Shown: positions 48,309 through 61,867 of the stretch, one piece after another | Position numbering within the stretch: the stretch's first letter is position 1 | How the letters are laid out: each line of letters starts with the position of its first letter | NCBI GenBank assembly: GCA_944324705.1 | Contig: CALUXI010000010.1 | Location: 1 to 61,974, forward strand | DNA length: 61,974 nucleotides | Source: an uncultured Acholeplasmatales bacterium | Lineage (GTDB): Bacteria; Bacillota_I; Bacilli_A; Acholeplasmatales; Anaeroplasmataceae | Direction: 5' to 3' | Program-made: the position numbers and the translations under genes | The notes under the pieces: generated by a model | Seen by the model: only the letters and a program-made list of their open reading frames with translations | Database searches by the model: none | What the model was told of the DNA's origin: nothing

Positions 48309-48314
48309 TATGAC

Positions 48315-48562
48315 AACGAGGAAAAAGAAATACTAGCTTATCCTTATATTTAGCGAGCTACTGGTTGGTGAAAGAGTAGTATAAAAAGATAAGTGAACGC
48401 GTCTTTGAGTTATGTTAGGAAATATGAGTATTAACATCAGGTGCGCCTGTTACAGCGCTAGAGTATGATTGTACTTGATTTGAGTGTATATCGTAAGATA
48501 TAAATTAAGGTGGCACCGCGGATTTTCGTCCTTAAATGATTAGTTTCATTTAAGGCTTTTTT
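48315..48562 (+). promoter_or_regulatory. T-box riboswitch, probably arginine (CGC specifier)
   Basis: The leader holds the T-box AAGGTGGCACCGCGG (48507-48521), a Stem I with the distal GGTTGGTGAAAGA loop, and the specifier region GAACGCGTCTTTGAG. It ends in a terminator (CCTTAAATGA/TCATTTAAGG plus T run, 48530-48556) whose 5' arm pairs with AAGG in the antiterminator. The specifier is CGC at 48398-48400 (Arg) if the usual purine must follow the codon; GCG (Ala) would be followed by U. The UGGC bulge pairs with a GCCA tRNA end, and the tRNA-Arg at 398-474 has G73. Uncharged tRNA would turn on the M20/ABC operon. Confidence 0.88.
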
Positions 48563-57749: not shown

Positions 57750-57755
57750 TAAAGA

Positions 57756-58000
57756 AACGAAGAAAAGAAGAGTAGTTTAGCTAGTAATTTATAGAGAGTC
57801 TAGGTTTGGTGGAACTAGATAATGAAAACTAAATGAACATGGTCTTGGAGTTATTTAGCCAATATGTAGGTTAAATCGGGATTCGCCTGATATAGCGATA
57901 GAGTATGTTAGTACTTGAAAATAGGTCAATTTGTTATTGATGAATTAAGGTTGGTATCACGGATTATTAAGTCTCGTCCTTTATTGGATGAGGCTTTTTT
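57756..58000 (+). promoter_or_regulatory. T-box riboswitch, methionine (AUG specifier)
   Basis: The leader has Stem I with GTTTGGTGGAAC in its distal loop and the specifier region GAACATGGTCTTGGAG. The codon is ATG at 57839-57841, followed by G. The T-box AAGGTTGGTATCACGG (about 57948-57963) deviates from consensus by one extra U before the UGGU bulge and by AUC in place of ACC. UGGU pairs with an ACCA tRNA end, as expected of tRNA-Met. The terminator CTCGTCC/GGATGAG plus T run lies at about 57973-58000. Uncharged tRNA-Met would induce the downstream operon. Confidence 0.88.
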
Positions 58001-58019
58001 TAATTATAAGGAGGAATAT

Positions 58020-59285
58020 ATGGAATTAAAAGAATTAAGTTATGAAAATAGTCATGAAGAATATCTATTTTTTAAAAATAATTTAGAAAATGAAATGGGA
58101 TTTATTAATGAATATAAAGACTTTAGTTATGATGAATATAAGATAATCGCAATACCCGAACGTCTTAATAGTAAAAAAGGAATTAATTTAAAAGAAAATT
58201 ATGTTTCAAACACTTATTATTTTTTATATGATGATAATAAAATTGTTGGATTATTTAAATTAAGACATTATTTAAATGAAAAATTAAAAAATGGAGCTGG
58301 TCACATAGGTTATTTAATTAATAAAGAATATAGAAATAAAGGTTATGCTACAAAAGGCTTAAAAATATTAATTGAATTAATAAAAAAAGAAAAGTTGATT
58401 AAAGAAGATGAACTATATTTTGAATGTTTTGATAATAATATTCCTTCTATTAAGACAATATTAAAAAATAACGGGTATATTCACCATTATGCAGGTAATA
58501 ATGTATATTTAAGAATACGATTAGATGATTTAAATTTAAATACTATTCCGCTAGTAGAATATGATGAAAATAAAGAAGTATTTTTAGCTGAAGAAGCAAA
58601 AGATTTAATATTTACAAACAAAAGTAAATTAATTATTTGTTATTTTAAAGAGAAACTAGAAGAATTAATTTTTAATAATGAAATAGAGTTATATTACATT
58701 ATGAATGATACTATGACTATTAAACTTTATAAGGATAGAAAAACACCTGATTTATATTATTTAGAAGGTTTAGTTGGTGAACCATTAATTGGTGGTTATT
58801 TAGATCTATTTATTAGGCATGGTTTAACAAAGATATTATTTATAGGTGGGGCGGGAGCTTTAATTAAAACTAACCCTGGTGATGTTTTTATTATTAAAGA
58901 AGCAATTAGAGATGAGGGCTTTTCTTATCATTATTTGAAGCCTTCGAGATATGTTTTAGCTGATGAAAGAATAATAAAATTCTTAGAAAGTGAATTAAAC
59001 AAACAAAATATTAAATATCAATTAGCTAAAACTTGGACCATAGATGCTATTTATAGAGAGACTAAAAGAAAAATAGATTTAAGAAAAAAAGAAGGGGCTA
59101 TGCTAGTTGAAATGGAACAAGCTGGACTAATTGCTTTAACAAAGTTTTATAATGTTAATTATGGGGCATTAATCTATGCTGGCGATGATTTAAGCAGTGA
59201 AAATCATGATTTAAGAGCATGGAAAAGTATCGATATAAGAAAAGAATTATTAAATTTAGCTAGACAAATAATAATTAAAATGTGA
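58020..59285 (+). CDS. GNAT acetyltransferase fused to a nucleoside phosphorylase-like domain
   Basis: From ATG 58020 (RBS AAGGAGG) the protein has 421 residues. An N-terminal GNAT acetyltransferase (about 1-175) has the acetyl-CoA segment GHIGYLINKEYRNKGYATKG. The C-terminal half (about 185-421) is a PNP/UDP-family domain: FIGGAGALIKTNPGDVFI, then VEMEQAGLI (363-371, the Glu-Met-Glu ribose-binding motif) and YAGDDLSS. It is the first gene after the methionine T-box and precedes metN. I infer a role in methionine salvage, for instance phosphorolysis of a methylthio- or adenosyl-nucleoside. The fusion is unusual in my experience. Stop is TGA. Confidence 0.85.
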   Translation: MELKELSYENSHEEYLFFKNNLENEMGFINEYKDFSYDEYKIIAIPERLNSKKGINLKENYVSNTYYFLYDDNKIVGLFKLRHYLNEKLKNGAGHIGYLINKEYRNKGYATKGLKILIELIKKEKLIKEDELYFECFDNNIPSIKTILKNNGYIHHYAGNNVYLRIRLDDLNLNTIPLVEYDENKEVFLAEEAKDLIFTNKSKLIICYFKEKLEELIFNNEIELYYIMNDTMTIKLYKDRKTPDLYYLEGLVGEPLIGGYLDLFIRHGLTKILFIGGAGALIKTNPGDVFIIKEAIRDEGFSYHYLKPSRYVLADERIIKFLESELNKQNIKYQLAKTWTIDAIYRETKRKIDLRKKEGAMLVEMEQAGLIALTKFYNVNYGALIYAGDDLSSENHDLRAWKSIDIRKELLNLARQIIIKM

Positions 59286-59293
59286 GGTAAATT

Positions 59294-60295
59294 ATGAATA
59301 AAAATGAACTATCAAATATTAAAAATTCTAATTGTATAAAATTTGTAAATATCGTTAAAAAATATAGTGATTTAACTGCCTTATCTAATATTAATTTAAG
59401 TATAAATAAAGGAGAAATATTTGGTTTAGTTGGCCCTAGTGGGGCTGGTAAATCTACTTTATTAAGAACTATAAATAAACTTGAAGAAGTTGATAGTGGG
59501 GATATTTTTGTAAATAATTACAAAATAAATGATTTAAAAGGTAAAGATTTAGCTAGTTATCGACAAAAAGTGGCTATGATTTTTCAACATTTTGCTTTAT
59601 TACAAACTCAAAATGTATATAAAAATATTGCTTTACCTTTAGAAGCTAGACATATTAAGAAAAGTGAAATAAAAGAAAGAGTTTTATATTTAGCTAAACT
59701 AGTTGGTTTAGAAGAAAAATTAGATTCTCTTCCAAATACTTTATCTGGAGGTCAGTCACAAAGGGTAGCAATCGCTAGAGCTTTAGCCTTAAATCCTGAA
59801 ATCTTATTATGTGATGAAGCTACCTCAGCCTTAGATCCTAATACTACTATTCAAATATTAGATATCTTAAAAAAAATAAATAAAGAACTAGGAATAACCA
59901 TTGTTTTAGTAACTCATCAAATGGAAGTAGTTAAATATATTTGTAATCGTGTGGCAATTATAAATAAGGGTAAAATAATTGAGACTGGTAATACAGAAGA
60001 TATTTTCTTATATAAAAACAAAGCTCTAGACACATTAATTAATGAAAAACCAGTTTTACCTAATAATGGAAAAAATATTAAATTAATTTTCCCTAAAAAA
60101 AGTGCTAGTGATTCCTTAATAACAAAAATGGCTAGAGAATTAAATATTGACTTTGATATTGCTTGGGGAAAACTCGAAAAATTTGGTGATGATGTATTAG
60201 GTAGTTTAGTTATTAATGTTTTAGATAAAGACTTTCAAAAAGTCTTAGATTATGTTAGTAAAACAGACGTAAAATATGAGGTAATGGAGGGATAA
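59294..60295 (+). CDS. metN: Methionine ABC transporter ATPase MetN
   Basis: A 333-residue ATPase with Walker A GPSGAGKST, Q-loop FQHFALL, signature LSGGQSQR and Walker B ILLCDEATSALD. The C-terminal NIL/ACT-like domain (about 265-333) binds methionine and inhibits uptake when internal methionine is high. It follows the GNAT fusion by 8 bp and precedes the metI-metQ fusion by 1 bp. Expression is controlled by the methionine T-box, in addition to this allosteric site. Confidence 0.96.
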   Translation: MNKNELSNIKNSNCIKFVNIVKKYSDLTALSNINLSINKGEIFGLVGPSGAGKSTLLRTINKLEEVDSGDIFVNNYKINDLKGKDLASYRQKVAMIFQHFALLQTQNVYKNIALPLEARHIKKSEIKERVLYLAKLVGLEEKLDSLPNTLSGGQSQRVAIARALALNPEILLCDEATSALDPNTTIQILDILKKINKELGITIVLVTHQMEVVKYICNRVAIINKGKIIETGNTEDIFLYKNKALDTLINEKPVLPNNGKNIKLIFPKKSASDSLITKMARELNIDFDIAWGKLEKFGDDVLGSLVINVLDKDFQKVLDYVSKTDVKYEVMEG

Positions 60296-60296
60296 T

Positions 60297-61847
60297 ATGG
60301 AGTTTTGGAACAAGTTAAAAGAATATGTAACAGAAGACTTATTTAAATATTTAGGCGAAACCTTAGAGATGGTATTTATTACTGTTTTAATAGCTTTAAT
60401 CTTTGGTTTACTTTTGGGTTTAGTTTTATTTTATACTAATAAATCAAAGAAAAAATGGGTCAAAATCATTTATAAAATACTAGACATAATTGTTGGAATT
60501 GTAAGATCGTTTCCTTTTTATGTATTAATGTTTTTCGTTATACCATTTACAAGAATTGTTATGAATATTTTTACAGGAAAAGCTCAAGCTTTCTCAACTG
60601 AAGCTTTTATTGTCCCTTTAACTTTAGCTGCGATACCATTTTTTGCCAAACTATTTGAAAACAGTTTACAAGAAACTAATAAAAATATTTTAGAAGTTGG
60701 TGAAGCTTTAGGACTTAATAAATTTCAAATCACAACCAAAATAATATTAAAAGAAGCCTTACCATCTATTATTTCCGGAACTACTTTAGCTATTATTACC
60801 TTAATTGGTTATAGTGCAATGGCTGGAGCTGTAGGTGGTGGCGGACTTGGTTTTTTTGCCTATGATAAAGGTTATATAGCTTATGACTTTATAATGATGT
60901 GCTTTGCTGTAGTTACAATTATAATTCTTGTTTTATTAATTCAATTTTTAGGTAATTTATTATATAAACTTGCTAAAAAAGGTGTTTTAACTTATTTAAA
61001 AATAGGAATTGGGATTGGTGTTTTATTGCTAGCCTTTATTATTACTAAAGTTACGGTTTATGCAGTAAATAGAACGGATTTAACCGTTATTAAAGTAGGA
61101 ACTATGAGTCAACCAGGGGAACCGATTATTGAATCGATTACGGATAAAATGGAAGAGTTAGGTTATAAGATTGAAATAGTTATTGAAAGTGAATTTGATC
61201 CTTTAAATAAAGCTTTAGAAGATGGGTCTGTTGATGTTAATTTATTCCAACATGAGCCTTATTTAAATAGCTACAATCAAACTCATGGAACAGATTTATA
61301 TAATGCTTTAACAATGTATGATTGTGTTTATGGAGCTTATAGTTATAAGATTGAGGATATTGATGACTTACGTGGTAGTGAGGAAAAAGTTATCGCAATT
61401 GCTAATGATAGTTCTAACTTAAAAAGATGTTTAGAATTACTTGCAGCTAATGGTATCATTGAATTAACCTCTTATTATGAGAGTATTAGTAGTTATTCAG
61501 CTACAGATATTGACAAATATTACGAAACTTCACCATCATATAGTGGTATAGTTTTAAAACCAATGGCATCTGCTAGCATTGCTGAAGCTTTGAAAGATGA
61601 TACTTGTTATTTAGGAATTGTTAATGCAACGTTTGCCATTCAAGCCAATTTAAGCAATGAAGAATTAATATTTGAAGAAGAAGACCCTGAACATGTAAAT
61701 GCCAATATTTTAGCTTGTCGTGATGAAGATAAAGATTCAAAATGGTTAGAAGATTTAGTTAGTGTTTTAATGAGTGAGGAAACAGCCGATTTTATAAATG
61801 AATATTTTAAGGGTACAATTAAGCCATATTTTGTATCTCATATTTAA
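60297..61847 (+). CDS. Methionine ABC transporter permease-binding protein fusion (MetI-MetQ)
   Basis: The 516-residue protein begins with a MetI permease (about 1-230, five helices, coupling loop EVGEALGLNKFQITTKIILKEALPS). It has a further transmembrane helix (about 234-258) and ends with a complete MetQ/NlpA methionine-binding domain (about 262-516, VIKVGTMSQPGEPIIESI and VNLFQHEPYLNSYN). There is no lipobox; the binding domain is held outside by the last helix. Tethering binding proteins to permeases is a known strategy in cells without an outer membrane. It is the last gene before a terminator. Confidence 0.93.
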   Translation: MEFWNKLKEYVTEDLFKYLGETLEMVFITVLIALIFGLLLGLVLFYTNKSKKKWVKIIYKILDIIVGIVRSFPFYVLMFFVIPFTRIVMNIFTGKAQAFSTEAFIVPLTLAAIPFFAKLFENSLQETNKNILEVGEALGLNKFQITTKIILKEALPSIISGTTLAIITLIGYSAMAGAVGGGGLGFFAYDKGYIAYDFIMMCFAVVTIIILVLLIQFLGNLLYKLAKKGVLTYLKIGIGIGVLLLAFIITKVTVYAVNRTDLTVIKVGTMSQPGEPIIESITDKMEELGYKIEIVIESEFDPLNKALEDGSVDVNLFQHEPYLNSYNQTHGTDLYNALTMYDCVYGAYSYKIEDIDDLRGSEEKVIAIANDSSNLKRCLELLAANGIIELTSYYESISSYSATDIDKYYETSPSYSGIVLKPMASASIAEALKDDTCYLGIVNATFAIQANLSNEELIFEEEDPEHVNANILACRDEDKDSKWLEDLVSVLMSEETADFINEYFKGTIKPYFVSHI

Positions 61848-61867
61848 GCTACTTTGATGTAGCTTTT
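61846..61867 (+). terminator. Terminator of the methionine operon
   Basis: AAGCTAC-TTTGAT-GTAGCTT hairpin with T tail. Confidence 0.8.

Follow-up and report, generated by a model that had tools for sequence, protein, structure and literature searches.

A GNAT–NP-I fusion protein encoded behind a methionine T-box leader in an uncultured Acholeplasmatales bacterium

Introduction

The NP-I (PNP/UDP) superfamily holds phosphorylases, such as the methylthioadenosine (MTA) phosphorylase MTAP of Sulfolobus (1jds/1jdv), the purine nucleoside phosphorylase PNP of Thermus (1odi) and uridine phosphorylase, as well as nucleosidases, such as AMP nucleosidase and the MTA/S-adenosylhomocysteine (SAH) nucleosidase MTAN (Pfs), a hydrolase without the phosphate-site arginine. 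In E. coli PNP the phosphate is held by Arg24, Arg87, Arg43' and Ser90, and the base is protonated by Asp204 with Arg217 (PMC6193948). Here we describe a gene from a 61,974-nucleotide stretch of DNA of an uncultured Acholeplasmatales bacterium (contig CALUXI010000010.1; the whole stretch is referred to as the window), in which an NP-I domain is fused behind a GNAT N-acetyltransferase domain, and which lies between a methionine T-box leader and metN.

The NP-I half of the window protein resembles the phosphorylases in fold (Z ~23, root-mean-square deviation ~2.9 Å) and shares with them the VEME ribose-binding glutamate and the catalytic aspartate (D389), but it is only 16-19% identical to them, has Phe and Gly in place of Arg87 and Ser90, and carries the GNAT domain in front. 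The best NCBIfam match (7.7e-10) is the short, AMN-like form of AMP nucleosidase (1ybf), which likewise has the RxEG motif and no arginine at the Arg87 position (AVIFLGKCGG), although the scores lie below the curated cut-offs (PRK07115, 38.4 bits against 264; TIGR01721, 32.1 against 307). MTAN has the same fold and the same lack of the phosphate-site arginine, but the MTAN of the window genome itself is only remotely similar to the fusion (hhalign E 1.4e-08). Standalone NP-I proteins of Bacilli of ~250 residues (loci L016, L083, L003, L004) are ~39-44% identical over the full C-terminal half and have the same motifs; they differ in lacking the GNAT half, and their neighbours are varied (e.g. 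NUDIX, HIT, uridine kinase). As for the operon, the leader, specifier, metN, metI and metQ are those of T-box-regulated metNIQ operons (for T-box regulons in general, see PMC2494555), whereas the window has an extra gene between leader and metN and its metI and metQ are fused. The literature searched held nothing relevant on a GNAT–nucleoside phosphorylase fusion, so that the pairing appears to be undescribed there, both families being well known.

Results

Domain make-up, distribution and origin of the fusion

The fusion gene is a single frame free of internal stops, in which two Pfam models exceed their cut-offs: Acetyltransf_1 at residues 58-153 (36.5 bits, cut-off 20.7) and PNP_UDP_1 (PF01048) at residues 264-415 (75.2 bits, cut-off 25.1). 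Membership of the GNAT superfamily is also borne out by the R-x-x-G-x-A/G acetyl-CoA motif (RNKGYA, residues 105-110; R105 in 12/12 relatives), and that of the NP-I superfamily by the fold, which was modelled with AlphaFold2 from a 40-sequence alignment. The product is a genuine two-domain protein, encoded directly behind the methionine T-box (Table 1). A sequence-only reading of this DNA had proposed a GNAT domain joined to a PNP/UDP-family domain, with an AUG-specifier T-box on the 5' side and metN and metI-metQ on the 3' side; all of these elements were confirmed, the last two by Pfam. The gene is slightly AT-richer than the window (GC content of the GNAT half 19.8%, against 27.1% for the window), and base composition decides nothing on a foreign origin.

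Relatives were sought in 160 genomes of the order, in 395 genomes of the class and in 392 genomes of the phylum, the latter two samples being drawn, non-exhaustive subsets. Within the order, one genome alone shares the fusion (G004; 56% identity over 417 residues). The class-wide sample yielded it in three further genomes (G398, G450 and G455), all from one other genus (g79, family f11), at 52-53% identity. A scan of GTDB r220 contigs returned the same four relatives and none further, which brings the total to five species, from two families of this class. The named records of the fusion are all metagenome-assembled genomes, labelled as uncultured Acholeplasmatales or Bacilli. The frames of the four relatives are open and full-length; as it is found complete in four species besides that of the window, the fusion is not a chance or frameshift artefact, and the split between the halves that the sequence-only reading had named as a possible refutation was not found. 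An assembly chimera was likewise ruled out by the intact fusion in five genomes.

The five fusions group as a single clade in the phylogenetic tree of either half (support 100/98 for the NP-I half and 100/99 for the GNAT half). Because both halves are monophyletic, a single fusion event is the simplest account, and two independent fusions were ruled out. The closest standalone NP-I protein is likewise found in family f11 (G392). Adjacent GNAT and NP-I genes, as a state preceding fusion, were not found in the relatives; two genomes (G060 and G122) carry both on one contig, tens to hundreds of kilobases apart. No relative was detected in viral contigs, which is weak evidence against spread by phages, as the scan used short peptide patterns, and PADLOC gave no defence-system match for the fusion or its relatives.

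The ratio of nonsynonymous to synonymous substitution rates (dN/dS) among the three g79 species was 0.19-0.35 for the GNAT half and 0.11-0.23 for the NP-I half, and higher for the linker, showing that the fusion is under purifying selection within that genus.

Partners of the GNAT half

The close GNAT subfamily (~40-60% identity) is rare, being found in 13/392 genomes of the phylum sample, where it occurs standalone or fused to NP-I, DUF402, nucleoside 2-deoxyribosyltransferase (in the opposite domain order to the window fusion) or barstar (Table 1). More distant GNAT relatives are fused to NUDIX (in both orders), P-loop kinase-like, nucleotidyltransferase-like and VTT membrane domains. This sporadic occurrence and the range of partners are what would be expected if the two halves were independent activities on one chain, the GNAT being a promiscuous module whose pairing has no joint pathway meaning. 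We regard this as possible though on the improbable side, as g79 has kept the fusion, with constraint on both halves, and as three of the close subfamily's four partner types are enzymes that act on nucleosides or nucleotides. The frequency of such partners suggests a role in nucleoside or nucleotide clean-up, a lead drawn from a small sample with a post hoc grouping. A more specific idea is that this GNAT subfamily signals a clean-up or resistance pathway not yet described, with a single bifunctional protein both acetylating and cleaving a nucleoside that bears an amino group (e.g. a nucleoside antibiotic or a damaged nucleoside); it is speculative and we give it little weight.

In one genome (G424) a standalone GNAT of the subfamily adjoins a glycogen phosphorylase gene (L104:1495-3494, L105:3447-7900), as do the fusions of family f11, possibly by coincidence.

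Fold and active-site residues of the NP-I half

Structural alignment of residues 190-421 with VIA-align gave Z scores of 23.7 for Thermus PNP (1odi), 23.5 for Sulfolobus MTAP (1jdv), ~23 for uridine phosphorylases and 23.1 for the AMP nucleosidase of Bacteroides (1ybf), and such near-equal values do not choose among NP-I activities. The C-terminal half matched no NCBIfam equivalog at cut-off and no curated MTAP, MTAN or PNP model: deoD scored 27.8 bits against 232 and uridine phosphorylase 16.8 against 280, while the MTA/SAH nucleosidase models TIGR01704 and PRK05584 were not listed for the window protein at E up to 1.

Ten positions are invariant in 33/33 family members (R297, E299, G300, W339, D342, E347, T348, M365, E366 and D389), including the RxEG and ET motifs and the ribose-binding glutamate of VEME, and in alignment with the genome's own DeoD the base-protonating Asp204 falls on D389. 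The base- and ribose-binding residues that the sequence-only reading had wanted checked are kept (E366, D389), so that the fusion is probably an active two-domain enzyme. The comparison with MTA phosphorylases that this reading had suggested showed agreement in the fold and in these residues, and a difference at the phosphate site: Arg87 and Ser90 of E. coli PNP align with F274 and G277, an arginine at position 274 is present in 0/33 members, and Gly occupies the Ser90 place in 25/33. The PGDPxR phosphate loop (Gly20-x-x-x-Arg24), which the genome's own DeoD carries, was not seen, CYFKE standing in its place; as the alignment of this segment may be shifted by one residue, the case for hydrolysis rests mainly on the Arg87 and Ser90 positions. 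E211 (E or D in 24/33) lies on or beside the equivalent of Glu12 of MTAN, depending on the alignment. The loss of the phosphate contacts, together with the retained ribose and base residues, as in AMP nucleosidase, points to a nucleosidase; the C-terminal half is probably hydrolytic, and the label of phosphorylase seems doubtful for it.

A true phosphorylase would have to bind phosphate by different residues. Most of the neighbours that Foldseek and HMM comparison gave are phosphorylases, and the conserved arginines R297 and R399 could form another anion site, yet the missing arginine, the Gly at the Ser90 place and the failure to see the loop make this unlikely.

Other NP-I genes were seen in related genomes. 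A divergent standalone NP-I protein adjoins purF in three genomes of the window's genus (G002, G003 and G007; L076:8379-9116, also L006 and L008), and in G002 and G007 it lies between purF and purM, within the purine biosynthesis operon, which was unexpected; the window genome lacks one, the fusion being its sole match. G031 and G155 each carry the gene of a close standalone NP-I protein just 5' of a NUDIX gene, with a uridine kinase–MTAN pair ~2 kb upstream (L066:4175-7448).

Genomic context and the methionine link

The fusion is the first gene of a three-gene operon downstream of the T-box at the 3' end of the window, and metN starts 8 bases 3' of its stop codon, a pattern scan showing no terminator-like site in between. 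The AUG specifier stands in a GAA[C/G]AUGG motif common to eight aligned leaders of the family. Elsewhere in the order, 12 other genomes have metN as the gene immediately after the T-box. Four of these (G002, G003, G004 and G007) keep the leader within the window's lepA–HIT–amidohydrolase–T-box–metN synteny, with nothing between leader and metN, and the same direct succession was found in G001, G009, G013, G016, G017, G018, G022 and G034; in G035, G036 and G038 an S-adenosylmethionine riboswitch takes the place of the T-box before metN.

The sequence-only reading had asked whether the architecture always lies beside met genes, and it does so in only one of the five species, that of the window; an association conserved across genomes, as a sign of a function in the methionine regulon, was not found. 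The four other fusion loci have neither met genes nor a T-box. In G004 the fusion lies between genes for a P-type ATPase and a Fic protein, the normal T-box–metN operon being elsewhere in that genome, and in the f11 species it lies downstream of glgB, glgP and a gene for a small membrane protein, where the 14-15 kb examined held no T-box. Since the other fusions lie away from met genes, the methionine connection is probably incidental. The 12 T-box–metN loci without the gene and the unrelated neighbourhoods of the other fusions indicate that the window gene was probably inserted ahead of metN, behind an ancestral leader and the ribosome-binding site that goes with it, and would be co-regulated with metN only here.

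Searches of the window genome showed that it encodes a DeoD phosphorylase and a canonical MTA/SAH nucleosidase (TIGR01704, 151 bits, cut-off 74). A methionine-salvage enzyme, in which the NP-I half would act on MTA or SAH, the GNAT half would modify the product and the T-box would be the functional clue, is thus very improbable, notwithstanding the place of the gene in a T-box–metNIQ operon and a best single PDB sequence match to Sulfolobus MTAP (1.6e-07), also among the best folds, given the single met-associated locus among five, the 12 loci without the gene, the genome's own MTAN, scores far under the MTAN and PNP cut-offs and the absent phosphate-site residues of MTAP. Of the earlier proposal of a bifunctional salvage enzyme, the genuine fusion and the ribose and base residues stood, and the role in methionine or MTA salvage did not.

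The metI-metQ frame (516 aa) is also single in G002, G003 and G007, and is split into two genes in G004. A second T-box (window 48310-48536, 122.7 bits) lies upstream of an M20-type amidohydrolase gene, with a specifier of CGC in one register and GCG in another.

Table 1. Features around the fusion gene in the window, and GNAT fusions found in other genomes
Feature	Location	Strand	Basis or remark
Methionine T-box leader	57751..57984	+	RF00230, Rfam cmscan 99 bits vs gathering score 93, E 1.3e-20
Specifier codon AUG	57839..57841	+	Coincides with specifier position of Rfam consensus
Intrinsic terminator, T-box expression platform	57969..57996	+	11-pair stem then T-run (pattern scan)
Ribosome-binding site AAGGAGG	58008..58014	+	Sequence reading; common with metN site of relatives (compared: L060-L063)
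GNAT–NP-I fusion gene, 421 aa	58020..59285	+	Open reading frame, Pfam, AlphaFold2 pLDDT 92
GNAT N-acetyltransferase domain, residues 1-168	58020..58523	+	PF00583/PF13302; standalone relatives ~170 aa, 40-47% identity
NP-I (PNP/UDP) superfamily domain, residues 190-421	58587..59282	+	PF01048; VIA-align Z ~23
metN, methionine ABC transporter ATPase, NIL domain	59294..60295	+	Pfam (ABC_tran + NIL), NCBIfam
metI-metQ fusion, permease + NlpA-type binding protein	60297..61847	+	BPD_transp_1 + Lipoprotein_9, one frame
Terminator-like hairpin at operon end	61846..61865	+	Pattern scan
GNAT–DUF402 fusions	L109:2439-3491 and L110:2133-3182		Genomes G451, G375
Nucleoside 2-deoxyribosyltransferase (Nuc_deoxyrib_tr)–GNAT fusion	L111:1706-2701		Genome G488
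GNAT–barstar fusion	L161:1249-2001		Genome G688

Discussion

The explanation that we favour, with roughly even prospects of being right as a whole, is that of a GNAT–NP-I bifunctional protein of single origin, a hydrolytic nucleosidase and an acetyltransferase, which came to lie under a methionine T-box in the window species. A GNAT N-acetyltransferase and an NP-I-superfamily enzyme were fused once in Bacilli. The NP-I half would most likely cleave an N-glycosidic bond by hydrolysis rather than phosphorolysis, with Glu366 contacting the ribose and Asp389 protonating the base, and the GNAT half would transfer an acetyl group to an amine, either on the same class of substrate or on a product, so that the two may serve in the clean-up or detoxification of a modified nucleoside. 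With the gene placed between the pre-existing leader and metN, read-through at the T-box when Met-tRNA is uncharged would be expected to co-express the fusion with the methionine transporter, which would not be so in the other fusion species.

Several points weigh against this explanation. The comparison of the window with G004 looks saturated, which limits the selection figures to g79; the alignment of the Gly20/Arg24 loop is uncertain by one residue; barstar and the non-nucleotide partners of the wider GNAT group speak for a module that may join with other domains freely. To our knowledge, no activity has been described for any member of either half.

The fusion points to an NP-I family that is widespread in Bacilli and looks hydrolytic rather than phosphorolytic. 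It also suggests that a gene can fall under a T-box by insertion between the leader and its operon, and serves as a warning, as annotation from the specifier codon alone would give the wrong pathway here.

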